Virus record (IMG/VR): IMGVR_UViG_3300035698_013504
Location: 62,001-126,000 of that record
From: a virus
DNA length: 64,000 nucleotides
Direction: 5' to 3' (one strand)
Part shown: positions 3,270-45,796 of the stretch, piece by piece
Layout of the letters: every line of letters starts with the position of its first letter
Position numbering within the stretch: position 1 is the first letter of the stretch
Position numbers and translations under genes: made by a program
Notes under the pieces: model-generated
Seen by the model: the letters and a program-made list of their open reading frames with translations, nothing else
Told to the model about the DNA's origin: nothing
Databases searched by the model: none

Positions 3270-3968
3270 GTGGCACGGCACTTCAGAAACCCGCCGATCG
3301 TTCTAATTTGCACCCTGCTGCTACTCTTCGCAGGATGCTCTATGTTTTACGACAGTTACGTCAAAACTCCCACCGCTAGCTTCAAAGAGAAGTCTAAGAC
3401 CACGTTTCCCAGCGGCAAAGTTGAAGAGAAGGAGACGGAGACCAAAGCGGGCGGCGGGGTGTTTAAGGGTGATGCCGCGAAGAAGCTGAAGATCGGTAAG
3501 GTACAGGTAGATAAGGCCGGGGCAAAGACAGACCCATCCACTTTTGAGCAGTGGAAGCAGAAGGTTAAGGGTAAAGAGGTCTACATCCTTTACGGCGCCT
3601 GCGGACTCGTTATGGTAGTGGGTTGCGTTTTAGGGTATTATGCAGGTAGCTGGAAACTCAGCGTCGTAATCTGCGCCGGTGCAGGCGCGGGGATGGGAAC
3701 GATAGTTCTCTTCGAGGAGTACCCCTGGGTGGTTCTTCTTCCGGTTGCGTTCTTTATCGCGGCCGGAGTGTTCCTCTTGTGGCACCTCGCACGCGGTAAG
3801 TCGATTGTTCGCACCCTAGGTGTGGTCACCGGCGCCCTTGAAGACTTGGAGGACGACGACCCAAGAGCTGCTAAAGCCGCGAAGAAGAACATCCGTAGAC
3901 GTGCAGGATCGAAGGAATCGCTGGTCAAGCGCGATATCACAGTGGTTAAAAGGAAGTTGAGGATATAA
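3270..3968 (+). CDS. Putative lipoprotein with three membrane segments
   Basis: 232 residues, GTG start 2 nt after the previous stop, SD CTGGAGGA at 3257-3264. The N-terminus is a signal-like hydrophobic stretch (residues 9-22) ending in LFAGC, a lipobox with Cys23. A charged Lys/Glu region follows, then three hydrophobic segments at about residues 104-122, 128-148 and 152-172, and a basic, partly coiled C-terminus. It overlaps the next gene by one base (TAATG). A role in the host envelope (lysis, superinfection exclusion or membrane-anchored injection) is possible; the sequence does not decide between them. Confidence 0.65.
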   Translation: MARHFRNPPIVLICTLLLLFAGCSMFYDSYVKTPTASFKEKSKTTFPSGKVEEKETETKAGGGVFKGDAAKKLKIGKVQVDKAGAKTDPSTFEQWKQKVKGKEVYILYGACGLVMVVGCVLGYYAGSWKLSVVICAGAGAGMGTIVLFEEYPWVVLLPVAFFIAAGVFLLWHLARGKSIVRTLGVVTGALEDLEDDDPRAAKAAKKNIRRRAGSKESLVKRDITVVKRKLRI

Positions 3969-4465
3969 TGGCTGATCGTCCGGCACTCATTTTACGCGAT
4001 ACCACTCAGTCGAGCATTAAGACGGGTGACCGCCTCGTCGACGCTGACGGCGTCCCCTACTCGCAGGGCGGTCAACGTCTTGTTGGTTTCGCGGCCAACG
4101 GCGCCTTTGCTACCGGCGATATCTCCCCGTGGTCCGGGCCGCTTTTGATTGCAGCAGCGACCGTAGATAGCGTCTCGGCATGTGTTAAGTCCGCGGCAAC
4201 GACTAATCCTGTTGAAATCGACGTGTTGATCAGCTCAGATAACGGCGCGACGTGGACATCTATCTTCACGACTACATTAACGATCGACGCCAGCGAGTTA
4301 ACGTCTACTACGGCCGCCGTACCCGCTGTAATCGATACGGCAAACAACACCATCAACGCTACAGACATGCTCCGTATTAATGTAGACGTTGCTGACGATG
4401 CAGAGGATCTTACCGTACAAATCGGTCTTGTGGACACAGCGTCGTCATCGTCGAGCTCGGCATAG
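3968..4465 (+). CDS. Small beta-sandwich virion protein with Ser tail
   Basis: 165 residues. The central region (about residues 50-120) is a paralog of the 131-residue protein at 2872, sharing WTSxFTTxLTID. The N-terminus is longer (residues 1-45) and the C-terminus ends in a short Ser run. Translation is coupled to the lipoprotein gene by a one-base overlap. It is followed after 15 nt by the giant LamG/Cys-repeat gene and is probably co-expressed with it. Confidence 0.7.
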   Translation: MADRPALILRDTTQSSIKTGDRLVDADGVPYSQGGQRLVGFAANGAFATGDISPWSGPLLIAAATVDSVSACVKSAATTNPVEIDVLISSDNGATWTSIFTTTLTIDASELTSTTAAVPAVIDTANNTINATDMLRINVDVADDAEDLTVQIGLVDTASSSSSSA

Positions 4466-4480
4466 AGGAGACTGACAGCT

Positions 4481-6982
4481 TTGTTATCATTCTTGGTCAA
4501 CTTCAGCGCAACGTCTTCCTCGAGTTCTTCGAGTAGCAACAGCTCGTCTTCAAGTAGCTGGAGTTCCTCGTCTTCGTCTAGTAGCTGGAGTTCCTCGTCT
4601 TCGTCAAGCAGCTGGAGCTCATCCTCTAGCAGCTCCTCCGACAGCAGCTCGTCGAGTAGCTGGAGTTCATCCTCTAGCAGCTCGTCTGACAGCAGCTCGT
4701 CGAGCTCGTCCTCTTGGAGTTCATCCTCGAGTAGCTCGAGTTACTCCACTGGCGCGGACCCGAACCTGGTGTTGTTCCTCCAGGCAGAAGGCGCGGATAA
4801 CGCCCGCGCGATTACCGACGACTCGATGTACGTGCATAGTGTCTACCCGCACGGTGAGCTGGACATAACAACAGATACGGCCGCCCTCGGTACCAGCGCC
4901 ATCTACTTTGACGGTAACACGCAAGAGCTCGTTACCTCACCAGACAGCACTGACTGGAACTTCAGCGGTGACTTCACCATTGAATGTTACGTGCGCTTTG
5001 AGGGCAACTCGATCGCGCAGAACCGCGGATTCCTTGCTCAGTACAAGAACAACACGAACTGTGATGCGCCGGATGCCGCATGGATGTTCTGCTTCCACTC
5101 GACTAAGGGGCTCTCATTCACCGCGTGGGATGGCGACACCGACAGTTACGTTATTCAGCAGCCCAACAACTCCGGCTGGGCCCTTAGCACATGGTACAAG
5201 ATCGCCGTTACACGCGAAGGCAATACTTGGAAGCTCTTCAGAGACACTACAGAGGTTGCTGTTGCAACCGACGCCCGCGTCCTTGAAGACGTGGCGGGTC
5301 CGCTTTACATTGGTAACTACGCTCCCACGAACAGTACGTGGAACTGGCAGGGTTACATGGACCACATCCGTGTCTGGAAGGGTGTCGCGCAGAATGAGGG
5401 TAACAGCTCCTCCAGCAGTAGCTCGTCTTACAGCGACGGTTGCCTGCCTCCTGGCTCAGGACCTTGTAACTTCTGCGATGAGGGTATCTGCGATACGTGC
5501 GACGAAGGCCCGTGCTGCACCGTCGACGAAATGGGCTGCATGTTCTGCGATCAGGGCGCTTGCTCCTCCTGTGACGAAGGCCTCTGCACTTCCTGTGACG
5601 AGGGTTCGTGTACTCGTTGTGACGAGAGTTTCTGTATGTCTTACGACGACCCGGTACTGGGCGCCTGTAACTTCTGCGATGACGGCAAGTGCTCCAGCAC
5701 CGACGAAGGTTCTTGCCGCCGCTGCGACGAGGCCGGGTGTACCCGTTGTGACGAAGCTCTCTGCACCGGCTGCGATGAAGGCCTTTGCACCGTAGCTGAC
5801 TCCGGTCGCTGCGTAGTCTGCGATGAGGGTACTTGCGCCAACTGTGACGAAGCTCTTGGTGGCGCCAACTGCTCAAGTTGTGACGAGAGTCCCTGTATCA
5901 GCTGTGATGAGACCAAGTGGAAGTGCCACAACTGTGACGAGGGTCTCTGCTCCAGGTGTGACCAGGGCGCTTGCTCCTCCTGTGATGAAGGCGCCTGCTC
6001 TAGCGCAGACGGCGGTTGCTGTACAAATACGGACGCAGGCGCATGTAACAACTGCGACGAGAACGAATGTTACCAGTGTGACGAAGTCGGCGGTTGTGCT
6101 GTCTGCGACGAGGGTTGCACTTCTTGTGACGAGGGCTGGTGTGGCACTTGTGACGAGGGTGACTGCAACCAGTGCGACGACGGCCCTTGCACTAGCTGTG
6201 ACGAAGGTCCTTGCATCAACGGCGACCAGGGCTTCTGCTCTGCGACCGACATCGGCCCGTGTCAGAGCTGTGACGAGGGTCCCTGCCTCCTCTGCGATGA
6301 GGGCGCCTGCACCAACGCCGATTACAACGAATGCTACCAGTGCGATGAAGAAGTCGGCTGCCCGTGGTGCGATGACGGCGGCTGCGACGTCTGCGATGAG
6401 GGATGTACCTACTGCGATGAAGGTCCCTGTATCAGCTGTGACGAAGCTGACTGCGACTCGTGTGACGAGGGTGACTGCGTCGCCTGTGACGAAGGCGCCT
6501 GCACTAACGGTGACAACGGCGCCTGCTCCAATTGTGACGAGGGTGTTTGCACGAACGGTGATCAGGGTACCTGTACCAACGGTGACCAGGGTGTTTGCTA
6601 CCAGTGCGATGAAAACGGCGGATGTACAGCCTGCGACGAAGGTTGCGCATCTTGTGACGAAGGCGACTGTACCAGTTGTGACGAGGGCGCTTGTAGCGTG
6701 GCTGACGCTGGCGCATGCTCGAGCTGCGACGAGGGCGCTTGTAGTTCCTGTGACCAGGGTGGTTGTGCCTCCTGCGACCAGGGCTGGTGTGGTACGTGTG
6801 ACGAAGGCGCCTGCAGCATGTGTGACGACGGACTTTGCACTTCGACGGATGAAGGTCCGTGTACCGTCTGTGACGAAGGTATGTGTGGTTCATGCGACGA
6901 GGGCTGGTGTGGTTCCTGCGACGAGGGTCCCTGCTCTCAGTGCGATGACGGCCTCTGTGCCGCCTGCGATGAATTCCCTTAA
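4481..6982 (+). CDS. Giant LamG protein with poly-Ser stalk and 62 C-X3-D repeats
   Basis: 833 residues from a TTG start (4481) with SD GAGGAG at 4465-4470. Domains in order: short hydrophobic N-terminus; Ser-rich stalk (about residues 11-87) broken every 7-9 residues by Trp, Asp or Tyr; LamG/concanavalin-like jelly roll (about 92-306, with FDGNTQELVTSPDS, FTIECYVRF, WYKIAVTREGNTWKLFRD, LYIGNY); second short Ser linker; then from residue 329 to the end 62 units of consensus C-x-x-C-D-E-G-x. Cys1 and Asp5 are present in all 62 units. Cys4 is replaced in 14 units by A, T, G, V or Y. The radical SAM gene starts 20 nt downstream. Likely a fibre or adhesin-like virion protein; the Cys repeats may be crosslinked, metal-binding or disulfide-bonded. 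Confidence 0.85.
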   Translation: MLSFLVNFSATSSSSSSSSNSSSSSSWSSSSSSSSWSSSSSSSSWSSSSSSSSDSSSSSSWSSSSSSSSDSSSSSSSSWSSSSSSSSYSTGADPNLVLFLQAEGADNARAITDDSMYVHSVYPHGELDITTDTAALGTSAIYFDGNTQELVTSPDSTDWNFSGDFTIECYVRFEGNSIAQNRGFLAQYKNNTNCDAPDAAWMFCFHSTKGLSFTAWDGDTDSYVIQQPNNSGWALSTWYKIAVTREGNTWKLFRDTTEVAVATDARVLEDVAGPLYIGNYAPTNSTWNWQGYMDHIRVWKGVAQNEGNSSSSSSSSYSDGCLPPGSGPCNFCDEGICDTCDEGPCCTVDEMGCMFCDQGACSSCDEGLCTSCDEGSCTRCDESFCMSYDDPVLGACNFCDDGKCSSTDEGSCRRCDEAGCTRCDEALCTGCDEGLCTVADSGRCVVCDEGTCANCDEALGGANCSSCDESPCISCDETKWKCHNCDEGLCSRCDQGACSSCDEGACSSADGGCCTNTDAGACNNCDENECYQCDEVGGCAVCDEGCTSCDEGWCGTCDEGDCNQCDDGPCTSCDEGPCINGDQGFCSATDIGPCQSCDEGPCLLCDEGACTNADYNECYQCDEEVGCPWCDDGGCDVCDEGCTYCDEGPCISCDEADCDSCDEGDCVACDEGACTNGDNGACSNCDEGVCTNGDQGTCTNGDQGVCYQCDENGGCTACDEGCASCDEGDCTSCDEGACSVADAGACSSCDEGACSSCDQGGCASCDQGWCGTCDEGACSMCDDGLCTSTDEGPCTVCDEGMCGSCDEGWCGSCDEGPCSQCDDGLCAACDEFP
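4514..4740 (+). repeat. Poly-Ser coding tract (stalk of the LamG protein)
   Basis: About 75 codons, nearly all Ser, using TCN and AGY codons in mixture. Trp/Asp/Tyr codons interrupt at 7-9 codon spacing. The codon mixture means the DNA is not a simple short tandem repeat. Confidence 0.85.
5465..6979 (+). repeat. 62-unit coding repeat, 24-nt period, 264-nt super-repeat
   Basis: The basic unit is eight codons (Cys-x-x-Cys-Asp-Glu-Gly-x), with a few units of 7 or 9-12 codons. A distinctive CYQCDE unit occurs at 6068, 6332 and 6596, exactly 264 nt (88 codons, 11 units) apart, showing growth by duplication of an 11-unit block. Confidence 0.85.
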
Positions 6983-7002
6983 CCTAGATGGAGACCGATG
7001 GC

Positions 7003-8295
7003 ATGGCAACAGAAACTCCAGTGATCTCAACGATTGACTTCAACCTATCCGACAGGTGTAACCTTCGTTGTGCCTTTTGCTACACGAAGGACGGCCACGG
7101 CAATGGCCCTGACATGGAGAGGACAAAGCGCATCTTGACGTGGTACTACGATCAGCTCCGCGTCGGAATTGAAAAGAACCCGCAGCGCCGGAAGGTGGCG
7201 AGCTTGAACATCTACGGCGGCGAACCTCTTATGGAGTGGGATAGCCTGCAGGAGACTGTAGCGTGGATTCAAGAGAACCATGGCGATCTTCAGCTCAAGG
7301 CCGGTGTCGTGACCAACATGGTGCTACTTGACGAAAAGAAGCTCGACTGGCTGATGGACAACCGCATTGGTATCCACCCATCAATCGACGGGTGTGCCGC
7401 TGCGGAGGATACTCACCGCGTGTTCCCCGACGGGTCTGGCGCCAGCAAGTTTGTATACGATAATGCGCGGCGGCTGATTAGCCGTACGAAAGGCCGCAGC
7501 TGTCGTATGACGATTTCCCCAGAGACCGTGCCACATATCTTTGAGAGCATTAAGTTTCTCTGCGAGGATATTGGGTTCCACACCGTTAACGCCATTCTGG
7601 CTGGCGGCGCTGAGTGGACACCTTCGAACCTTGACGCTGTTAAGGCGCAGACCATACAAGTTACGGATTGGTGGCTTGAAAAGATGCGAGAAGGCGAGCA
7701 TTATTCCCTCTACTACTTGAGGAACATGTTCAAAGGTATACAGGACAGCAAGCGGCGGCGAAGCCTGTGTTCGTCAGGCATAAGCCGCGTTGGTGTTGAC
7801 ACCAACGGCGATCTATGGCCCTGTCACCGGTTCTGCAACCAGTCCGCGCAGTCTGAATATAAGCTGGGTACCATCGAGACAGGGTTTACCAACCTTGTGC
7901 TATACGAAAAGCTGAAGAACTACGACATTGCGGCAAGCATGAGCGAGAAGTGCAGTACGTGCCCCGCCGTTATGGGGTGCCACGCTCTCTGCCTTCACGA
8001 GATGATGGTCGCGGAGCGGGGGATGTTTACGCCGAACAATCACTACTGCTACATCTGGCCCTTCTACTGGAACGAGGCGATGCGTGCCCATTCCATTATG
8101 ACGGCCGAGAGGAACAAGCTGTACGAAAAGATGTACTGCAGCGGTGACGACAACCGCCGTCCGCAATCACGACAGCGCCCTGCGCGACAGAACCAAGGTT
8201 CGCGCCCGACGATGATGGAGAGAATGGAAAAACTCGAGGGCGAAGTGTCCGGAATCAAAAGTTGTGGGGCTTGCTCCTGCACGCCCCCGAAATAA
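7003..8295 (+). CDS. Radical SAM/SPASM peptide-modifying enzyme
   Basis: 430 residues from ATG 7003, chosen over ATG 6988 because GGAG (6990-6993) is well placed for it. Radical SAM core: CNLRCAFC gives C19-x3-C23-x2-C26 for the SAM-binding 4Fe-4S cluster; YGGEP at 71-75. SPASM domain for auxiliary clusters: C256, G-x4-C274, then C317-x2-C320-x5-C326-x3-C330 and C349, matching the anSME/SPASM pattern. The C-terminus is basic, has a short coiled coil and ends SCGACSCTPPK. No PqqD-like recognition domain is visible. SPASM enzymes modify ribosomal peptides (thioether, C-C bonds, formylglycine). The adjacent 62-repeat C-X3-D protein is the obvious candidate substrate. Confidence 0.9.
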   Translation: MATETPVISTIDFNLSDRCNLRCAFCYTKDGHGNGPDMERTKRILTWYYDQLRVGIEKNPQRRKVASLNIYGGEPLMEWDSLQETVAWIQENHGDLQLKAGVVTNMVLLDEKKLDWLMDNRIGIHPSIDGCAAAEDTHRVFPDGSGASKFVYDNARRLISRTKGRSCRMTISPETVPHIFESIKFLCEDIGFHTVNAILAGGAEWTPSNLDAVKAQTIQVTDWWLEKMREGEHYSLYYLRNMFKGIQDSKRRRSLCSSGISRVGVDTNGDLWPCHRFCNQSAQSEYKLGTIETGFTNLVLYEKLKNYDIAASMSEKCSTCPAVMGCHALCLHEMMVAERGMFTPNNHYCYIWPFYWNEAMRAHSIMTAERNKLYEKMYCSGDDNRRPQSRQRPARQNQGSRPTMMERMEKLEGEVSGIKSCGACSCTPPK

Positions 8296-8890: not shown

Positions 8891-8908
8891 CGGAGAAGGG
8901 TGGTACGA

Positions 8909-9715
8909 ATGAGTTTTGCACAAGACTGTATAGACGCTGGATCTAACCTGGCTGAAGTACCTGTTATGCAGATCGGCCAGCGTACGGCCGGTACGGCAGC
9001 CCTGACGATCAAGACTGCAGATGGCGCCCCGTATGACCTTACAGGGAAGACTGTGCAATTCATCGCCAAAGAGTTGTACACGGATAACGTCTCGTACATC
9101 GACAAGGCAATGACCATCGTCAGTGCCGTTGATGGCGAGGTCACGCTTGCGTATGGCACATCTGACTCCAAGTACGCCGGGGCGTGGGTAGCCCAGGCAA
9201 CAGTTAGGGACAGCGGCACCAACGAGTATATCTACCCGGTGTACTTCTATGTACGCACCTCCCTTGACTCGTTGACCTCTGAACTCGTAGGCGTACCGAA
9301 TATCTACGAGATCCGCCTGGCTATGCGCGATACCTCGGCTGTGGATAACTATCTGCTGGATGACGTCGAGTTCAGAGATGAAGAGATTATCGCCGTGATT
9401 CGCTGGCCGATCGATCAGTGGAACGAGACACCGCCCCCGGTACAGCGTTACACTCCCGCGAGCTTCCCGTGGCGCTACCACTGGATTCGTGCGATTGTTG
9501 GACACCTGTTGGAGATCAAAGCGCACAACTATCGCCGCAACCGCATGGACTACCAGGTTCAGGGCGGCCACGTTGACGATAAGAACAAAGCCGACAGCTA
9601 CGAGAAGCGGGCTAATGAGCTCATCTCGGAGTGGAAGGAGTGGATGATGCATACCAAGCTTACACTCAATATGAACCGCGGTTGGGGTACAGTAGGCTCT
9701 GGTGTGTATCGATAG
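8909..9715 (+). CDS. Neck / head-tail connector region protein with Ig-like N-domain
   Basis: 268 residues from ATG 8909 (SD GGAGAAGGG at 8892-8900). Residues about 18-120 resemble the Ig-like fold of BppU-type phage proteins (TAALTIKTADGAPYDLTGKT, VDGEVTLAYGT, AGAWVAQATV). The C-terminal half is helical with the phage-typical pattern DDVEFRDEEIIAVIRWPIDQ and a Trp/Arg/His-rich region. Position before the sheath points to a neck or head-completion protein. The assignment rests on context and composition. Confidence 0.65.
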   Translation: MSFAQDCIDAGSNLAEVPVMQIGQRTAGTAALTIKTADGAPYDLTGKTVQFIAKELYTDNVSYIDKAMTIVSAVDGEVTLAYGTSDSKYAGAWVAQATVRDSGTNEYIYPVYFYVRTSLDSLTSELVGVPNIYEIRLAMRDTSAVDNYLLDDVEFRDEEIIAVIRWPIDQWNETPPPVQRYTPASFPWRYHWIRAIVGHLLEIKAHNYRRNRMDYQVQGGHVDDKNKADSYEKRANELISEWKEWMMHTKLTLNMNRGWGTVGSGVYR

Positions 9716-27150: not shown

Positions 27151-27635
27151 TGGCAAGCTCTGACTACACAAACCGACTTCATGACCTACTCATCTTCCAG
27201 GGCGCTAGTCCTGAAGGCAATGTCCCTATCACCATAGCCATTGGCGACGTGGCCAGCATCACGACCGGAGCGCAAAAGGTTGCGCAGCTATTCTACAGCA
27301 TGCTTCTGACTCAAACAGGCACAGTAGCCGGGGAGCCCACACTGGGCACGGATTTCCTCTACGAGTTGCAGCGCGGCGGTTTACGTACTGAGTCAGATGT
27401 TCAAGCAAAATTCGGCTATGCCGTAACCCAGATACTTGATAGCATGTCGGTACGGTGGGAATCTGAAGAGGTCAACGGAGAGATCCCGACGATTTCGCCC
27501 GACGAACGCCTGACTAATATCGAGCTAATCAACTTCTCGATCGAAGTAGATAAGCTGATGCTGCGAGTGCGCCTGACAACAGAAGCAGGCGACAGTCGAG
27601 AGTACTTCTATCCTGTAACGGTAGCGATCACATGA
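27150..27635 (+). CDS. Baseplate wedge protein, gp25/gpW-like
   Basis: 161 residues; starts in TAATG with the previous stop. The pattern TGAQKVAQLFYSMLLTQTGTV...LGTDFLYEL, followed by a helical middle and EVDKLMLRVRLTT, matches the GPW/gp25 wedge family (lysozyme-like fold without activity), here with a longer N-terminus. It lies directly before the J-like gene, as in P2 and T4-type clusters, and would link baseplate to sheath. Confidence 0.75.
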   Translation: MASSDYTNRLHDLLIFQGASPEGNVPITIAIGDVASITTGAQKVAQLFYSMLLTQTGTVAGEPTLGTDFLYELQRGGLRTESDVQAKFGYAVTQILDSMSVRWESEEVNGEIPTISPDERLTNIELINFSIEVDKLMLRVRLTTEAGDSREYFYPVTVAIT

Positions 27636-29278
27636 GCACGACCCTATTTGACATTGACCAACTGTCGGACGCTGAACTTGAACAGGCACGCTCCTTTCTG
27701 CGCGAGACACTCGGCAACGAGTATCCTAGCCTGGACCTCAAGACGGGCAGCGTCTGGAACGATCTATTGATCCGTATCGCCGCGATCTTCCACGCGTTGG
27801 AGCAGCAAGATATTGAGGCTCTACAGCGTAGCATGTCGCTTGCGGCTATAAACGCCGACCCGACGCTTGCTGACCCTGACTACGTCAACGGCGTTATGTC
27901 CAACTTCCTCATCGAACGTGATGATGGCGCTAAGGCAACCGGATATGTGCGAGTCATCCTCAACGCGCTACAGACAACAATTATCAACGATGGCACTACG
28001 TTCACGACGGGTGAATACGTATTTACCACTGAAGCAACCTATGTGGGTGTTACGGATGCCACGGCCGTACTAAGGTCTACGGAGCGACTGATTGAGCTGC
28101 GTAGCGACGGTAACTACGAGTTCACGATCCCGGTCGTCGCCGCCGCTGAAGGTACAGGGTACAACATCGAGAAGGGTACTGACCTGACGATGAGCCCGGC
28201 GCCTACGCCACTAGTACTCAGTGAGGCCGCCGTAGACTTTGAGAGCGGGCTAGCGCAGGAGACAAACGCAGCGTTGACAGCAAAGCTGAGCAACGGTATC
28301 ACCGCTAAGGTGCTTTCCGGCCGCCAGCACATCGCGGCCCTTCTGCGCGAGCAGCTGGCCTCCATCGCCTCAATCTCCATCATCGGGTTCGGTGACCCCG
28401 AGATGCTTCGTGATAAGCACAACGTCATGCAGCTTGCGGTGGGCGGTAAGTCTGATATCTACGTACAGACACAGCCCGCACCTATCAGGAAGACTCTAAC
28501 GGTTACGGCAACACTGGTCGACGCCGATACGAAAGAGTGGCAGTTCGGCATAGCGCGGGACGACGCTCCTGGGTTCCTGCTGGTGTCATCCGTTTACGAA
28601 AGCTCTAGTTCCGGTGGATCATTGGAGTTGTCATATCAGGCTCGTGCCGCTGATATCTCCCAAGAGAGCAGCGAGTTTGTCCCCTACATTGACACGACTA
28701 CGTCTGTGGAAAGCGCATACTCGCGATACCAGACAAGTGTATTGCGTTTCCTGGACCCGAGTACAGCCGCTACAGTCGTCGTCGGAGACACAGCGACGTA
28801 CTACTGTGACGTTTGGTACCTCCCAGGTGTTGACACACTACAGGATTACATCAATCAGCGCGGCGTTCACACTCCGCAAGCGGACTACCTTTTGCGTGCG
28901 CCGATCCCGCTGTGGTCGACCGTGTCTGCACTCGTCAAGTACAAGAATGGCACGGTACAGCCCAGTGAGTCAGCGGTACAGCAGGCTGTCCTCGACCAGG
29001 TTAATGGTGTAGGCTTTGGTTCCGGCATCCTGGAGACTTCCGACATCATCGCCGCGATCAAGGATGTGATCGGGGAAGAGTCATACGTTTCCTCGCCGAT
29101 CGAGATCTCAGCAAGGCTCTACAAGCCGGACGGCACCTCCGTGCTTTACCGGTCTAACACAGCCATCAACATCCCGAATGACTTTACGAACAGCATCTCG
29201 TCGAGGACAGCGATGTTCCTCATCGTGGCGTCCAACATCTCGATCACGTTCGAGACGGTGGACACGGTTGAAGTGTAA
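27632..29278 (+). CDS. Baseplate J-like wedge protein (gpJ/gp6)
   Basis: 548 residues; ATGA overlap with the gp25-like gene. The N-terminal part has the typical J signature: LDLKTGSVWNDLLIRIAAIFHALEQQDIEAL, then a beta domain with INDGTTFTTGEYVFTT and VVAAAEGTGYNIEKGTDLTM. The C-terminal VNGVGFGSGILETSDIIAAIKDVIGEE is also characteristic. A short Ser-containing loop (ESSSSGGS) sits mid-protein. It forms the wedge ring of the baseplate together with the gp25-like protein. Confidence 0.8.
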   Translation: MSTTLFDIDQLSDAELEQARSFLRETLGNEYPSLDLKTGSVWNDLLIRIAAIFHALEQQDIEALQRSMSLAAINADPTLADPDYVNGVMSNFLIERDDGAKATGYVRVILNALQTTIINDGTTFTTGEYVFTTEATYVGVTDATAVLRSTERLIELRSDGNYEFTIPVVAAAEGTGYNIEKGTDLTMSPAPTPLVLSEAAVDFESGLAQETNAALTAKLSNGITAKVLSGRQHIAALLREQLASIASISIIGFGDPEMLRDKHNVMQLAVGGKSDIYVQTQPAPIRKTLTVTATLVDADTKEWQFGIARDDAPGFLLVSSVYESSSSGGSLELSYQARAADISQESSEFVPYIDTTTSVESAYSRYQTSVLRFLDPSTAATVVVGDTATYYCDVWYLPGVDTLQDYINQRGVHTPQADYLLRAPIPLWSTVSALVKYKNGTVQPSESAVQQAVLDQVNGVGFGSGILETSDIIAAIKDVIGEESYVSSPIEISARLYKPDGTSVLYRSNTAINIPNDFTNSISSRTAMFLIVASNISITFETVDTVEV

Positions 29279-35749: not shown

Positions 35750-38023
35750 GTGGCGATCATCCAGCAAGAGTGGCATAATCAGAACGAGAATAGGAACTAC
35801 CCGTTTGACGACAACGCGTCACGGCTAGGTCACGACGGTACGCTGTTGCCCAACGATATCATTGCCGATTGCAACATCACGTTCCCGTCCAGCTATGGTT
35901 CCTATTTGTACGTGTCCTCAGTCGTTGTCTCCAACGAGACCGTCTCCGTAACGTTTTTGGCCACAGACACGTCCCCGTACTGCGGCGGGTCATCGACAAC
36001 AACATTCCGCCCGATCGCGGCCATTACGGTAGTGAACCCCTCTAAGTGGCGCAATTACGCCGTAGACGCGCTGGTTGACGGCGTGGCGGGGTGGGTAGCC
36101 TTCGGGACAGGCGTATACGAACACTCTTTGCTGTCACTTCGCTTTGAGACGCCTGCCGCCTCAATGCTGACGCCTAGAAGCGCCAGAGGGTACGAGGCTC
36201 CTCCGGTAACGTCCCTACGCAAGGAGCAAGACGCAAACACGATACAAGGCACGGTACTCCTGACTGGTGCTGACCAGACCGTAATCGTCGAACCCGGCAC
36301 ACGCGTAATCGACGGGACGTCCCAAGATGTCGTCCTGGTTGGCCTCGACCTGTCGACTAACCCGAAAGACGTCCTGAGAACATACGCGGGCGACTGCGGG
36401 GGCCGACCTGATAGTCTTAGCTGCGCTAAACAGCCATTCCTTGACATCAACGGTGTCCGCCCTAACGAGAGCGGCAACCTGGACGTAATATTCCCCAGCC
36501 CAATCGTGGCGTCACCGATCTTTGGTGGTGGTGGTATCATTCTGGACCACCCGCTGGGGCTTGGAGACGTCTGTACCAAAGAGAACTTGGTCGACGACGA
36601 CCTCCTGCTGCCCTACGAGCCCAGCGACTCCTGTACGTGGTACTTCTCCTCAAGCTCCTCGTCCAGCGACAGCTCAGAGAGTATCTCGTCTTCGTCCAAC
36701 AGTAGCAGCTCCTGGTCAGCCGCGTCGATCTGCGAGGACTGGGAGCCGCCGAATACACCATGGCACTGGGACGATCTGCTGGGCACATGGACGTTGGAGA
36801 TCGGCGGCCTTAGTACGTTACGAAGGTTCTCCGACCCCAACGTTGGCGGCCCGCAGCTTAGTGTCTACAGATCTGCGAGTGCGCCAAAGGATGGCGACCA
36901 CCTTCTGGAAGGCGCTGCCCGCGTACATGACGCTGACGGTAATGCGTTCCTCGTATTTGGGTTTGAAGACGAAGAGAACTTCTGGTTCGCCGGGTTCTCG
37001 ACAAAGAAGATGTTCGACGGGTCTGATTTCAAACAGCTCGCGTACATTGGGCGGCGTACGTCGGACTCCGGGGCGAACTGGGATAGCGGCTTGGGTTACG
37101 GCCTGAGGTTCGAGCGTACGGCCGAGGTAGCCCCGACGACGTTCCAGCCGGGCACTGACTACTACATAAGCGTTGAGCTCCACAAGATCGGCCACACGAC
37201 AAGCATCTCTCTTCGGATCTATGACTACGCGGGTATCGCAGTGTCCTACGTGGCTATCAACGTCACAACGTCCTTGGTTACCCCAGGCCTGCTGGGAATA
37301 GGCGTTGCGGATAGCTACACCGAGTTCGACAACATCGGGTGGGACTGTGGTACTCAGATGTCTTCGAGTTCTTCATCCACGAGTGTGTCGAGCAGTTCAT
37401 CCAGTAGTTCTTCATCGTGGAGTTCCTCGTCGTCGAGTAATTCGTCGTCGAGTAGTAGCTCGTCTTGGAGTTCAAGCTCTTCGTCCAACAGCTCCAGCTC
37501 CTCCTCGAACAGTTCCAGTTCCTCGTGGAGTTCCAGTTCCTCATCATCTTCCAGCGACTCGTCAGAGTATAGCCCATTTGGTGAATTTCCAACCTCGGCG
37601 ACGCTCTACGTAGGGTCGTATACGCCCGGCACCGCGATTGTAAATCTACACGCCATAGACTCATCGTATTTGGGCGTGATTGAGGTCGTGGGGACCCCAG
37701 GGTACGATCTATATCTTGATTGGCAGTACACCGCGCCGCAACGTACGCAAGCGGTAAAGATTGTTGGGTTCTATGAGGGTAATCCTGCGCACAATGTTAA
37801 ACTATATCAGCGGGACTACCTGCTTGGCCAGTGGGTCGCGGTTACTGGCGATGCTTCGGACTTCCCGCACAATACGACAGATCAGACGTATCAGTTTACG
37901 CTCGGGGACGCTGCGACTTACGTTTCTATAGAGGGACATAGATCGCTACGTTTCCTTCATACGAGCAACGGCTTAGCAGGACATCAACTAAACCTGAATT
38001 ATGTACAGCTACTGGATCCATAA
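35750..38023 (+). CDS. Virion appendage protein, family member 3, with two Ser linkers
   Basis: 757 residues from GTG 35750. N-terminus HNQNENRNYPFDDNA is the clearest copy of the family motif; DINGVRPNESGNL recurs near residues 231-243. Ser-rich linkers at about 302-325 and 538-606 separate a LamG/glycanase-like beta domain (about 330-530, with FLVFGFEDEENFWFAGF and YYISVELHKIG) from a small C-terminal beta domain. The domain between linkers could bind glycans. The second linker has Trp/Asn/Asp at 7-9 residue intervals. Confidence 0.7.
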   Translation: MAIIQQEWHNQNENRNYPFDDNASRLGHDGTLLPNDIIADCNITFPSSYGSYLYVSSVVVSNETVSVTFLATDTSPYCGGSSTTTFRPIAAITVVNPSKWRNYAVDALVDGVAGWVAFGTGVYEHSLLSLRFETPAASMLTPRSARGYEAPPVTSLRKEQDANTIQGTVLLTGADQTVIVEPGTRVIDGTSQDVVLVGLDLSTNPKDVLRTYAGDCGGRPDSLSCAKQPFLDINGVRPNESGNLDVIFPSPIVASPIFGGGGIILDHPLGLGDVCTKENLVDDDLLLPYEPSDSCTWYFSSSSSSSDSSESISSSSNSSSSWSAASICEDWEPPNTPWHWDDLLGTWTLEIGGLSTLRRFSDPNVGGPQLSVYRSASAPKDGDHLLEGAARVHDADGNAFLVFGFEDEENFWFAGFSTKKMFDGSDFKQLAYIGRRTSDSGANWDSGLGYGLRFERTAEVAPTTFQPGTDYYISVELHKIGHTTSISLRIYDYAGIAVSYVAINVTTSLVTPGLLGIGVADSYTEFDNIGWDCGTQMSSSSSSTSVSSSSSSSSSSWSSSSSSNSSSSSSSSWSSSSSSNSSSSSSNSSSSSWSSSSSSSSSDSSEYSPFGEFPTSATLYVGSYTPGTAIVNLHAIDSSYLGVIEVVGTPGYDLYLDWQYTAPQRTQAVKIVGFYEGNPAHNVKLYQRDYLLGQWVAVTGDASDFPHNTTDQTYQFTLGDAATYVSIEGHRSLRFLHTSNGLAGHQLNLNYVQLLDP
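37360..37569 (+). repeat. Poly-Ser coding tract
   Basis: About 70 codons, nearly all Ser with mixed TCN/AGY codons and spaced Trp, Asn and Asp. It encodes the second linker of the 757-residue appendage protein. Confidence 0.85.
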
Positions 38024-38772: not shown

Positions 38773-40415
38773 TGCCAGGCGTTGACTGGTACAACCATAA
38801 CGAGCACATTGATTACCCGTTCCTTACGAACGAGGTATCCAGCTCGTCGTCTGCAGCTGGGTCAGACAACTACATTGACCTCCGGGCGGACGTTACCGAG
38901 TTTCAAGCTGGTTGGGGGACGTTCCCGGCCGCCTATGCGCCTGAGGACTGCATCGACTTCGATACGCGGCATCCGAGTATACCCGATACGTCCACTTACG
39001 TGTGGACTAATGTCGCTCCGGCTGTTATCTCCTTTACAGCGGTTGACGTATCTGTACCTATTACCGGCTACTCCGTATTCTTCTACGCCAATGTGCCTGT
39101 AGGAACCACGATGCTCCTCCGGGCGGCGGAGTCGACAACCGTAAACAGTGACGTGTACGTCGTAGGTACAGGGGTAGCTCAGTGGCACGAGTTAGAGGTC
39201 GATAAAGCTTTTTCCGCCGTCGACTTTAACACAATCGTCTACTACTTTGTCAACACGGTCGTGCCCTCGCCTGTACAGACTAAAATGTACGCGTTTCATG
39301 TGCGCGCGCATTATCTCGGCGAGCCTGTTAACACGATGCCCTACGAGGGTAGAGGCGTTATCGACGCTGGCTTCATTTTGGGCCCCAATGCGGGCTTCGA
39401 CGTGTCACAGCACCAAGTTTACCTCCACAGCGTCACGAAGACCGAAGACAACATCGAGTTCGACTTCCGCACCGACGCGGCCGAGTTCGACGGCTGGCGC
39501 TTTCTGTTTACGAGAGACTTCACGACAGCCTGCTTTGGGGAAACCGAGTATGTGGACGCTGAGGAGATACCGGTTTCATCCTCATCCTCATCCTCGTCGT
39601 CTTCGTCCCTATCGTCATCGAGTAGCAGTTACTCATCAAGTTCTTCATGGTCGTCGTCGAGCAGCAGCGATTCGTCTAGCTCTTCGTCCTCTTCATGGTC
39701 ATCGTCATCGTCGAGTAGTAGCGACTCGTCGAGTTCATCCTCATCTAACTCGTCGTCGTCTAGCTCCTCGTCGTCTTCGAACAGCAGCTCTTCTTACTCT
39801 TCCTCGTCAAGCGCGGAGAGTTGGAGCTCATCCAGCAGTAGCTGGTCGTCAACAGCGGCTACGTACAACTTCATGGGCCGAGCGTTCCTCGTTACCGGCG
39901 ACTTGTCCGAGTACGATGAGTTGGAAGAAGGAGAGACACTCTATGCCTTTGCCAACATCGAACCAGCATGTATCCAGACGCTTGCCAACAGCTATGTAAC
40001 CGGCATCACGCTCGCGAATGATGGACGCAGATGCCCTACGCTTTGCGGGAGTAGCAGCTCCACGATGGGAGACGAGACAACCTTCTATCACACGCGTAAT
40101 ATGCGCGGCGCCATCATCTTACGAGAAGGGCACAATTGCGAGCTGGTTATCAACCCCGGCAATAATCAAGTGGAAATCAACGCCAATCTGGAGTATGGTA
40201 GAGGACAGACGTGCGTCGACATCATTATCGACGAGGCTGGGTTCTCCAGCGGACAGCTGTGTGAGTCTTGCGACGACTTCGTTACGGACATTAACGGTGT
40301 AGGCATTGAGGCCACATCGTTCAACATTTCTGGAGACTTCGGGGTTAAGGTTGTCCCCGATGCAGCGGGTCACCGCCTTGTTATCGAACTGGCAACGAAT
40401 CTTTGTGGCGCGTAG
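38772..40415 (+). CDS. Virion appendage protein, family member 5, long Ser stalk
   Basis: 547 residues, TGATG overlap. N-terminus YNHNEHIDYPFLTNE is the family motif. A beta-sandwich domain (about 30-265) precedes a Ser stalk of roughly 90 residues (about 268-360) broken by Tyr, Trp, Asp and Asn at regular spacing. A C-terminal domain then carries DINGVGIEATSF, matching the conserved turn of members 1 and 3. Stalk length suggests an extended surface fibre. Confidence 0.7.
   Translation: MPGVDWYNHNEHIDYPFLTNEVSSSSSAAGSDNYIDLRADVTEFQAGWGTFPAAYAPEDCIDFDTRHPSIPDTSTYVWTNVAPAVISFTAVDVSVPITGYSVFFYANVPVGTTMLLRAAESTTVNSDVYVVGTGVAQWHELEVDKAFSAVDFNTIVYYFVNTVVPSPVQTKMYAFHVRAHYLGEPVNTMPYEGRGVIDAGFILGPNAGFDVSQHQVYLHSVTKTEDNIEFDFRTDAAEFDGWRFLFTRDFTTACFGETEYVDAEEIPVSSSSSSSSSSSLSSSSSSYSSSSSWSSSSSSDSSSSSSSSWSSSSSSSSDSSSSSSSNSSSSSSSSSSNSSSSYSSSSSAESWSSSSSSWSSTAATYNFMGRAFLVTGDLSEYDELEEGETLYAFANIEPACIQTLANSYVTGITLANDGRRCPTLCGSSSSTMGDETTFYHTRNMRGAIILREGHNCELVINPGNNQVEINANLEYGRGQTCVDIIIDEAGFSSGQLCESCDDFVTDINGVGIEATSFNISGDFGVKVVPDAAGHRLVIELATNLCGA
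39575..39856 (+). repeat. Longest poly-Ser coding tract
   Basis: About 90 codons, mostly Ser with mixed TCN/AGY codons. It encodes the stalk of the 547-residue appendage protein. Confidence 0.85.
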
Positions 40416-42713: not shown

Positions 42714-44888
42714 ATGGCGGAAGACAACATCCTGGCGCGTATCCACGCGGCAACACAGGAGCTCAGCACAAACGGGGAGCTAGACAGGCGGATACACGAA
42801 GAGCTTACTCCCGGCATCAAGACACGGGTAATAGGTCCGTGCGCTTACAGGGGCAACGAGAAAGAGGCGCGAGAGAAACCGTGTTGTGGGGGTAAGAAAA
42901 CACGGGAAATCCTTTTTGCCTGTAGTCACCCAGAAATTGCAGCCGGGGAATCCTGGTCCGCTATCTGTCAGCGCTGTAGGTTCATATCCCCGGTCGCAAG
43001 CCAACCAAACAGCCTGCTGGGCGCCAAACGCATACTTGTTATGCCGTGGGGAGACAAGGGATCTATCCGCAACCTAATCCAAGCCCTCGACAAAATGTCG
43101 TTTGACGTGTCGGTTCTCCAACGTGGTGGAGGTGAGTGGAAGGACGCCGCGGTTGAGAAACTGAAGAACGAGCACTTCGACCTTGTTGTAACCTGGCAAC
43201 GCCTTTATAGCATGGGCTGGTGCGAAGAGGTCAACAAGATCATTGACGCGCGGAACATCCCTAAGCTCATCTTGGACTTTGGCGTGTGGGACCACTACAA
43301 GTCGGCTATCGTCGACCCGGTTGGTGATAACGCCGAATCTGCGGTAGCCGGTAACTTCATTCGGTTACTGCAAAACCCCTTGCAAGCCAAAGCTACAACA
43401 GATGCAATGATACGGTTACCGGCAATGGTTGATACGGTTAAGGCGTCGGCCGAGATAGGGGCGACGTATCTGGACGATGCAAACCTGTCCGGTCTTCCTA
43501 AAGACTTTATGCTTCTGCTTCTGCAGCGTACAGGAGACCAAGTACTTCTACGAGACGCTCCAAAGTCTAGGCAGGATCAAAGCCGTGTCGCCCGAGATAT
43601 CATTGCTGAGGCAAGACTCGCAGGCAAGTTTGTGGTTGTCAAGCCCCACCCGTTTGATAAGCCTTTAGAGGGCGTAGAGGCATCTGGGCCGCATCACCGG
43701 CTAGTAACAAACTTGACGATGGGAGATCAGAACACCGCGGTACTGTCGCATCTGCTGCTTAACTGCGAGCGGATGATCACCGTGAACTCCACAACAATCT
43801 TTATGGCCCAGTTGCTAGGCGTACCTGTATTCACGCTTGGTAAAGGCTGGTTTTCTGGGAACAGAGTTGCAAATGAACCCCCGCTGATTCGCGGTGCGGT
43901 TCTTGATAAGAATGCAGTAGACGTAGAGTACGCCAAGAAGTTCTTCGCGTTTATGTATAGCCGACAACTAACAATCGGTGAGTGTGGCGAGCCGGAAGCC
44001 GTGCTCAGGATCCTGAAGCTCATGCACCCGTCTTTGCTAGAGTCTTCGGAGGTGCAATCAAGCTCGTCGCCAGAGCCTCCAAAGGTTCCGACGCCGCAAA
44101 TCACGATGCCTACTATCAACGCCCAGGCCTTGTCGAAGACCCTAAAGCCCGCCCCACGCTCTGAGATGAAAGACGTTACCGCCATGCTGTTGACATGGAA
44201 GAGAGACTCCGCGCAGCAAGTAGTTAACTCTTTGCGCGACTCGGGCGTACAGAACATCTGGATATGGTGCAATGAGGGCGCAGCTGTACCTGATGGGGTC
44301 GATGTGTCCATCGTGTCTTCTACCAACCTAGGTAACTGGCAGCGTTTTGCGATGGCGCCGCTGGTTCCAACTTCACACATCCTTTATTGCGACGACGACT
44401 GTACGATTACGCCTGCCGGTATTCAGGCCCTTTCCAAGGGTATGGCGACGTTCCCCAACAACGTACTTGGTTTATGGGGGTGGGCGTTTAACCCGTCGTT
44501 CGAACACTACCGCCAGCGGGAGGAATTTCATAGCCACACGCTGCAGGGACATCAAGCGATGTATGCCGATATGATCTCCCCGTGTGGAATGCTCGCGCCG
44601 CGTATCGCTATCCAAGAGGCTATGGGTAAGGTTAACTACTGGAACACAGCCCTGAAGATATTTGGCGACCACACGTTGGACGATATGACACTTTGCCTGG
44701 CGATGTCGAAATGCGGATGTGGCAGGCCCGCTGTCGTACAGGGTGAGGGGGCCGGACTCAAGTTTATCAAAGACACCGCCCCCGCGTCTTCACTCGCTCT
44801 GAAACCGGGCCGTCGAGAGATACTATACACAGAGACACTTCCGGCGTTCCGCGGAATCGGATGGAGTCCGATTAAAGAGGGGAAGTAA
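42714..44888 (+). CDS. Two-domain glycosyltransferase with N-terminal Cys motif
   Basis: 724 residues, ATG with GAGGAG upstream. N-terminus: NILARIHAAT motif shared with the next two genes, then Cys 43, 57, 58, 70, 85, 88. Domain 1 (about 105-445) resembles capsule-polysaccharide-type GT-B enzymes: KPHPFD at 310-315 and a region ITVNSTTIFMAQLLGVPVFTLG, the typical 'N-S..E/M-A...G-P-V' nucleotide-sugar site. A Ser/Pro linker follows. Domain 2 (about 490-715) resembles GT-A exostosin-like (GT64) enzymes: TAMLLTWKR start and the metal-binding triad D560-D561-D562 in YCDDDCTI. Two active sites in one chain suggest sequential sugar additions. Confidence 0.75.
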   Translation: MAEDNILARIHAATQELSTNGELDRRIHEELTPGIKTRVIGPCAYRGNEKEAREKPCCGGKKTREILFACSHPEIAAGESWSAICQRCRFISPVASQPNSLLGAKRILVMPWGDKGSIRNLIQALDKMSFDVSVLQRGGGEWKDAAVEKLKNEHFDLVVTWQRLYSMGWCEEVNKIIDARNIPKLILDFGVWDHYKSAIVDPVGDNAESAVAGNFIRLLQNPLQAKATTDAMIRLPAMVDTVKASAEIGATYLDDANLSGLPKDFMLLLLQRTGDQVLLRDAPKSRQDQSRVARDIIAEARLAGKFVVVKPHPFDKPLEGVEASGPHHRLVTNLTMGDQNTAVLSHLLLNCERMITVNSTTIFMAQLLGVPVFTLGKGWFSGNRVANEPPLIRGAVLDKNAVDVEYAKKFFAFMYSRQLTIGECGEPEAVLRILKLMHPSLLESSEVQSSSSPEPPKVPTPQITMPTINAQALSKTLKPAPRSEMKDVTAMLLTWKRDSAQQVVNSLRDSGVQNIWIWCNEGAAVPDGVDVSIVSSTNLGNWQRFAMAPLVPTSHILYCDDDCTITPAGIQALSKGMATFPNNVLGLWGWAFNPSFEHYRQREEFHSHTLQGHQAMYADMISPCGMLAPRIAIQEAMGKVNYWNTALKIFGDHTLDDMTLCLAMSKCGCGRPAVVQGEGAGLKFIKDTAPASSLALKPGRREILYTETLPAFRGIGWSPIKEGK

Positions 44889-44893
44889 CAGCT

Positions 44894-45796
44894 ATGGGAA
44901 GCCTGTTAGATCGCATCAAGGATGCAGCACCCAAAGATCTGAAGCCTTACGTGCCGCCCGCCGATGATATGAAGGGGGCGCACATCTATATTCTATCGCA
45001 CGAGCGATATGAGCTGCTACGATGTTGTTTGGCGTCTGTATGCGCGTCTCCAATGACGTGCTATATCCATGTTATTGATGACTCGAGTCAAGATCCCCGC
45101 GTGATGAAACTGATATGCGCGTATCTTGAAGCGGGGCTCATTAAATCTGTTACTACCACTCCGCATCATCTGAAGCACGGCTGGTCGCGCCGTCTGATGA
45201 TGAACCATTTTGACGTAGATGATGCGCACACACTCATGCAGCTCGATGGAGATATTGTTGTGCCGCCAGGCGGCTGTGAACGTATGATCTCGATATTTCG
45301 TCAGCTTCATCAAAAGGCTGATGTACAGTGGCTTGGCGCGTGCCATATGGAGTATTTCTATGGTAAACCGAAGAATACACAAGAGGTCATTTCCGGTGAC
45401 GAGAGATATTTGATCGAACGCTTAACCCGCAATGCGAGTGAGGCCGCTTTCGTTATGTCAAAAGAAGCGGTCCGGTATAAACCTGCGCTAGATACGGTGG
45501 GGCCTCCTAGAACGCATCTCGGTAATTTTATTGTAAAGGTCGCGGAGATGGGAGTGACAGCAACCTTGATCACTCCGCCTATTCGGTTTCAACATATGGG
45601 GGCGTTTGATTCAATCGTTTGGCCGGGGCGCCCGTGGCCTCGCTACCTCTTTCGCGGCCTAGATGGTAAGCCATGGCAGCCCTTTGAGTGGTGTGAAATA
45701 GACTACAAGGAGATGGAAAGCCGCTACCCAAAATCCGTGAAAGAGTTGTCGGATAGAATTATCGAACACGCAGAAGTGGAGCTCCCAAGTGTCTAA
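44894..45796 (+). CDS. GT-A glycosyltransferase (GT2-like)
   Basis: 300 residues, 5 nt after the previous gene. N-terminus SLLDRIKDAA shares the motif of its neighbours. Start of fold: HIYILSHERYELLRCCLASV, with DDSSQDPR; metal/donor motif LDGDIVVPP (D118-x-D120). Then a C-terminal acceptor region with aromatic residues (RPWPRYLFRGLDGKPWQPF). A single-domain inverting enzyme is likely; sugar and acceptor unknown. Confidence 0.75.
   Translation: MGSLLDRIKDAAPKDLKPYVPPADDMKGAHIYILSHERYELLRCCLASVCASPMTCYIHVIDDSSQDPRVMKLICAYLEAGLIKSVTTTPHHLKHGWSRRLMMNHFDVDDAHTLMQLDGDIVVPPGGCERMISIFRQLHQKADVQWLGACHMEYFYGKPKNTQEVISGDERYLIERLTRNASEAAFVMSKEAVRYKPALDTVGPPRTHLGNFIVKVAEMGVTATLITPPIRFQHMGAFDSIVWPGRPWPRYLFRGLDGKPWQPFEWCEIDYKEMESRYPKSVKELSDRIIEHAEVELPSV

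Follow-up and report, generated by a model that had tools for sequence, protein, structure and literature searches.

Several radical S-adenosylmethionine (SAM) enzymes with a SPASM domain form thioether crosslinks. CteB, of the SCIFF maturases, links Cys to Thr in a short peptide. QhpD is a bacterial enzyme that acts on an enzyme subunit of quinohemoprotein amine dehydrogenase; this substrate is not tandemly repeated and receives few crosslinks. It introduces S-Cβ (Cys-Asp) and S-Cγ (Cys-Glu) thioethers into a protein, not a secreted peptide (PMC8326336). PapB of Paenibacillus polymyxa, the maturase of freyrasin in the ranthipeptide class, makes thioethers between Cys and the β-carbon of Asp (PMC9413430), and its substrate PapA is a short peptide with six C-X3-D motifs. 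In this work, we describe a gene pair in a 64,000-nucleotide stretch of viral DNA (referred to as the window; bases 62001-126000 of the 200,903-bp IMG/VR record IMGVR_UViG_3300035698_013504), in which an 833-residue protein ending in 62 C-X3-D units is encoded 5 bp upstream of a complete radical SAM/SPASM enzyme.

The enzyme very probably acts on the adjacent repeat array, as conserved pairing and cofactor-site layout suggest. Its product is reasonably likely to consist of Cys-Asp thioethers closed within each unit, dozens of them in a single tail-associated protein. The two genes are best filed as a radical SAM thioether maturation system with a viral structural substrate, a PapB-like action on a protein, as in QhpD, and not as a standard ranthipeptide system.

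The repeat array

The array protein is encoded on the plus strand (4481..6982) from a TTG start with AGGAGA 9 nt upstream. It opens with a poly-Ser linker punctuated by W, D, N, and Y (4514..4741), continues with a LamG/concanavalin A-like domain (residues 148-302, 4922..5386; Pfam PF13385 Laminin_G_3, E 1.7e-14) that also matches PHROG virion structural proteins, and ends in the C-terminal array (residues 329-833, 5465..6979). The consensus of the unit is CxxCDEGx, with Cys1, Cys4, and Asp5 as its prominent positions. Since 62 consecutive units of 7-12 residues tile residues 329-833 and leave no segment big enough for a degenerate one, no hidden unit escapes the count. Cys1 and Asp5 occur in all 62 units, while Cys4 is absent from 14 (Fisher's test against 0/62, p = 5e-5). 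The tiling count thus confirms the original prediction, made from the letters alone, which had reported exactly these figures.

The pattern does not depend on how the units are defined, and the repeat statistics stand even when the motif is not presupposed. Counted with overlaps, C-x3-D occurs 66 times in the array, against a mean of 16 and a maximum of 27 in 2000 shuffles of the array residues. Each D[EQ] dipeptide in the array has a Cys four residues earlier, and each CxxC is directly followed by Asp. Because the units have diverged in their DNA (on average, two units share 57% of their nucleotides) and both codons serve for Cys1 (37 TGC, 25 TGT) and likewise for Asp5, the Cys/Asp pattern is held by selection and not merely by recent duplication.

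The enzyme compared with PapB, QhpD, and CteB

The enzyme gene (6988..8295, plus strand) encodes 435 residues from ATG 6988, or begins at ATG 7003, which has GGAGA upstream. The best of all NCBIfam models is the PapB ranthipeptide maturase (NF047865, E 4.7e-50, 170.7 bits) and the second is QhpD (147.4 bits), both scores being below the family cut-offs. All four members of the clade described below match PapB, which also heads the table of matches for the clade. The original prediction had called the neighbouring gene a complete radical SAM enzyme with a full set of SPASM cysteines, and this description stands: a CX3CX2C motif (C24/C28/C31) is accompanied by a three-Cys auxiliary cluster I (C261/C279/C335) and a four-Cys cluster II (C322/C325/C331/C354). 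The spacings 261-279 (18) and 322-325-331-335-354 (3, 6, 4, 19) equal those of C352-C370 and C408-C411-C417-C421-C440 in PapB (PMC10470005), so that the ten cluster cysteines are spaced within their groups as in PapB.

Another shared feature is Arg281, which lies two residues after Cys279 just as PapB Arg372 lies two after Cys370; Arg372 is essential, and its mutation abolishes crosslinking (PMC9413430). Arg281 is invariant in the phage clade and across nine aligned viral enzymes. Its equivalent is Gln in CteB and is missing from most other SPASM proteins compared; it is not fully specific to the CxxCDEG clade, as the enzyme of a distant phage locus (L117) has Arg as well. The predicted structure of the phage enzyme (predicted local distance difference test, pLDDT, 78; predicted template modelling score 0.79) is closest to CteB (5wgg/5why; template modelling score about 0.69), which is also the closest solved structure by sequence. 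CteB differs in its acceptor and short substrate, in having PCHQF in place of PCHRF, and in its longer N-terminal region.

The four array-associated enzymes form one clade with support 1.0, in a tree that gives this clade no clear sister among the bacterial enzymes. Among the bacterial enzymes of the PapB-like set, one that bears PCHRF (L069) has a small neighbouring peptide with several C-X3-D motifs, which shows the link between enzyme and motif in a bacterium as well.

Such a protein could also be an anaerobic sulfatase-maturase-like generator of formylglycine acting on an unrelated target, and the original prediction had named a grouping with those enzymes as evidence against itself. The two kinds of protein belong to the same superfamily, and the predicted fold matches the anaerobic sulfatase-maturating enzyme well. 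Nevertheless, the model of that family (TIGR03942) gives 73.3 bits against a cut-off of 349, compared with 171 for PapB, and both the cluster Cys spacing and the Arg are as in PapB, which makes this explanation highly improbable.

Recurrence of the pair in other viruses

When 2.9 million viral contigs of IMG/VR were scanned with two consecutive CxxCD[EQ][GA]x units as the query, six other contigs matched, two pairs of them near-identical. The enzyme (E 1e-83 to 1e-131) adjoins the array in 5/5 contigs with a sequenced flank, representing three lineages besides the window; the sixth, of 5.7 kb, terminates inside its array. Two further viral scans found neither a clade enzyme without an array nor a CxxCDEG array with sequenced flanks and no enzyme, and the more distant enzymes from the scans have no CxxCDEG array nearby. 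The search for the same pair in other phage genomes that the original prediction had proposed was therefore successful, and homologous repeats lacking a radical SAM neighbour, which it had regarded as damaging, did not appear among arrays with sequenced flanks.

The arrangement of the pair varies. The enzyme is downstream of the array in the window, L016 (where a short open reading frame intervenes), and L028, and upstream in L011. The L011 pair is compact, with an enzyme of 388 residues and an array protein of 426. Loci L011 and L023 belong to one contig with two arrays and a single detected enzyme. Contig 3300005264_000069 has an array at both ends, with the enzyme after it at the start, like a circular genome cut within the array. 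The array proteins of the relatives hold 8-50 C-X3-D motifs, so that each enzyme, like PapB, adjoins a candidate substrate built of several such motifs. Besides the pair, the window genome shares with the fetched contig parts only a gene of moderate similarity (window 44876-45793) and a single weak match. Because gene order differs and the flanks are unrelated, common descent of a genome region is not enough to explain the association, and because these phages have almost nothing else in common, the pair behaves as a cassette.

These observations bear on a further explanation, in which the array is a CxxC rod stabilised by disulfides or metal, and the enzyme has another target and is adjacent incidentally or only through a common operon. 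CxxC is retained in 48/62 window units, and metal-binding or disulfide elements can occur in phage tail proteins. However, the pairing is exclusive in both directions across four lineages whose flanks are unrelated and whose gene order is not constant, and Cys4, which CxxC chemistry requires, is lost in a third of the units, whereas Asp5, which it does not require, is never lost. We therefore consider a disulfide or metal rod quite improbable.

Outside viruses, a scan of 84,980 prokaryote genomes for the repeat pattern gave one match only, on a Micropruina contig (L044), to an unrelated Cys/Thr-rich protein with neither a C-x3-D array nor a homologous enzyme. Scanning IMG/VR with the enzyme as a single protein gave no matches, although alignment-based scans did find relatives. 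Most loci of a plain (CxxxD)5 scan are chance frames of simple repeats (CAFFDGSS, CSGADAAR, CPASDVLD, etc.) without an enzyme. A weak match of the array to Bordetella phage BIP-1 (20.7% identity, minus strand) was treated as spurious, and the radical SAM genes of Campylobacter phages (23% identity) are surrounded by other annotated genes, none of them listed with an array product.

Spacing of the units and the putative bond

Seven arrays were compared (the window, L011, L023, L016, L009, L024, and L049). All of them keep Cys1 and Asp5, and Cys4 is missing in 73 of the 217 C-x3-D matches, about a third; this total also counts a few that lie beyond the arrays, one of them in the LamG domain of the window and two in the N-terminal part of L024. 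The distance from Cys to Asp is X3 throughout the tiled units, while that from Asp to the next Cys differs from three residues in 18/205 steps. Two 16-residue segments (CSVCDQWSHCPNDIGP, in L011 and L023) hold a C-X2-D unit (HCPND), in which both Cys and Asp are retained. The loss of Cys4 but never of Cys1 or Asp5, which the original prediction had read as the mark of a Cys1-Asp5 crosslink, holds across the seven arrays taken together. Since PapB prefers CX3D over CX0D and CX6D (PMC9413430), Cys1 is a better candidate for the donor than Cys4.

The enzyme may instead act on the array and make another bond, such as one joining Asp5 to the following unit's Cys (D-X3-C), an α-carbon sactionine, or a link through Cys4, or it may carry out epimerisation. 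With a period of eight residues, regular units contain D-X3-C just as often as C-X3-D, and related phage enzymes adjoin repeats with other possible acceptors, for example, (Thr-Cys)n and CxxCDGD. Against this stand the drift of the Asp-to-Cys spacing and the constancy of the Cys-to-Asp one, the dispensability of Cys4, and the fact that PapB and QhpD, the closest families, both make S-Cβ Cys-Asp links. A different bond thus seems unlikely. The case for an Asp acceptor in the window clade comes mainly from the invariance of Cys1 and Asp5 and their fixed spacing, together with the motif preference of PapB.

Proposed mechanism and points against it

The two genes would form a substrate-enzyme cassette. 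Auxiliary cluster I of the enzyme would bind the Cys1 thiol of each unit, a 5'-deoxyadenosyl radical would take a β-hydrogen from Asp5, and a ring from Cys1-S to Asp5-Cβ would be closed within C-X3-D, unit by unit, up to 62 times. Each ring would change the mass by about -2 Da, or about -125 Da overall. Cys4 would not be a ring partner; units could do without it, and its role, if it has one, may lie in inter-strand disulfides. At the phage tail or surface, the poly-Ser/LamG protein would then carry a constrained rod with a beaded form. The dozens of Cys-Asp thioethers in a structural protein that the original prediction had envisaged thus gain support from the best-matching families, the constant pairing, and the conservation of Cys1 and Asp5.

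Several observations weigh against such a mechanism. The PapB score is about half of the curated cut-off of 340 bits. The enzyme has no leader-recognition domain (RRE) because it starts directly at the radical SAM core (about residue 13; its first cluster Cys is residue 24, that of PapB residue 119), and the N-terminal region that holds the RRE of PapB is missing. The array has no obvious leader either, being C-terminal in a large protein, or at the extreme N-terminus in L011. An additional invariant Cys283 (PCHRFC) lies near cluster I and has no counterpart in PapB or CteB; if it is a ligand, it could occupy the site meant for the substrate thiol. AlphaFold gives the unmodified array a pLDDT of 30, which speaks neither for nor against a rod. 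PCHRF and a best match to PapB are also found in the L117 enzyme, which adjoins (Thr-Cys)n repeats. Because distant phage enzymes with both features adjoin Cys-Thr repeats, the Arg or the PapB match alone is no proof of an Asp acceptor, and the score below the cut-off and the missing RRE and leader set the phage enzyme apart from PapB as a variant of thioether maturation.

If the proposed Cys1-Asp5 thioethers exist, this would be the first radical SAM modification found in a virus particle protein, with about ten times the crosslinks of freyrasin per chain, made by an enzyme without the usual leader-recognition domain. In the open literature, as judged by titles and abstracts and with subscription papers outside the search, no report of such a modification was found. 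Viruses may thus join parts of their particles by chemical welds, in a manner not previously described. The closest likeness in covalent strengthening of a phage particle protein is HK97-type capsid crosslinking, which differs in that self-catalysed Lys-Asn isopeptide bonds join subunits and no radical enzyme takes part. The processing of long repeats by such enzymes becomes directly testable, and the pair offers a route to long thioether-stapled protein rods.

Genomic context

The genome is that of a large tailed phage, because its record includes, further upstream, a gene like that of RNA polymerase beta-prime (L038 7270-9120), which recalls large phages that encode a multi-subunit polymerase of their own, and a Baseplate_J gene (window 27632-29278) downstream of the pair. 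Directly upstream of the array gene, and in frame with it across a TAG, a small protein with a poly-Ser end (3968..4465, plus strand) weakly matches phage families of unknown function. Downstream of the enzyme lies a protein with a BppU_N (baseplate upper protein) domain (8900..9715, plus strand; PF10651, E 1e-6). The array gene thus sits in a structural module with virion domains, a context that points to, without proving, incorporation; the array protein is quite likely a part of the virion.

The pair might, on the other hand, produce a secreted or released peptide, a phage-encoded ranthipeptide such as a bacteriocin or signal, as peptide natural products are the best-known setting of this enzyme family (PMC8326336, PMC9413430). 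We give this little credence: the array forms a single 833-residue protein with LamG and poly-Ser segments within the structural module, no gene for a protease or an exporter was recognised next to the pair, the L009 array gene directly adjoins tail tube and tape measure genes in the fetched contig stretch, and the L023 array protein has a weak fn3 match.

Long poly-Ser linkers with W/D/N/Y punctuation also occur in other structural-module proteins of the window (37361-37560 and 39576-39850, besides 4514-4741), and the array proteins of L009 and L016 have Thr-rich linkers in their place.

More distant phage enzymes and other Cys-rich repeats

More distant phage enzymes, again with PapB as the best family, adjoin other Cys-rich repeat proteins (L100, L101, L050, and L117-L126). 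In L100 (9201-10646 and 10471-12000), a second type of array, CxxCDGDx with 37 C-x3-D motifs, lies beside a PCHRF enzyme; its Asp5 is sometimes replaced, and the Asp two residues on is mostly kept. In L101 (3090-4382 and 4337-6064, minus strand), the gene of an irregular Cys-rich array protein overlaps that of a PapB-like enzyme, and in L050 (5915-10535), three consecutive radical SAM genes follow a small Cys-rich repeat protein of the CSCN type (CSCNVAVYDCSCN...). A tail-module protein of L117 (5397-5969), encoded a short way past the gene of the central tail fibre J, terminates in CCECEC(TC)nEQCCSECDCGD, and a PCHRF radical SAM/SPASM enzyme (5974-7257) is encoded directly downstream, as in L118-L122, L124, and L126; this pair is possibly a Cys-Thr analogue of that in the window. 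An N-terminal HIxELR motif in L100 resembles that of the L117 tail protein.

The distant pairs strengthen the general claim that phages pair such enzymes with Cys-rich tail proteins and suggest a wider, apparently undescribed phenomenon. With somewhat less assurance than for the window itself, we lean towards the view that several tailed-phage lineages encode dedicated radical SAM enzymes putting many thioether rings into their own tail or surface repeat arrays, a covalent hardening of virion fibres whose acceptors would be Asp, and possibly Thr and others, depending on the phage group.

For other viral Cys-rich repeat proteins (CDCCDCEPC, CCTACCTCC) in L099 (411-3233), L103 (6985-9624), L108 (9669-12419), and L105 (4410-6407), the fetched stretch revealed no radical SAM gene. 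In L055 (7935-9772), a radical SAM gene is followed by a protein ending in CHSSCHSSCHGSRGRR, a possible further virion substrate.

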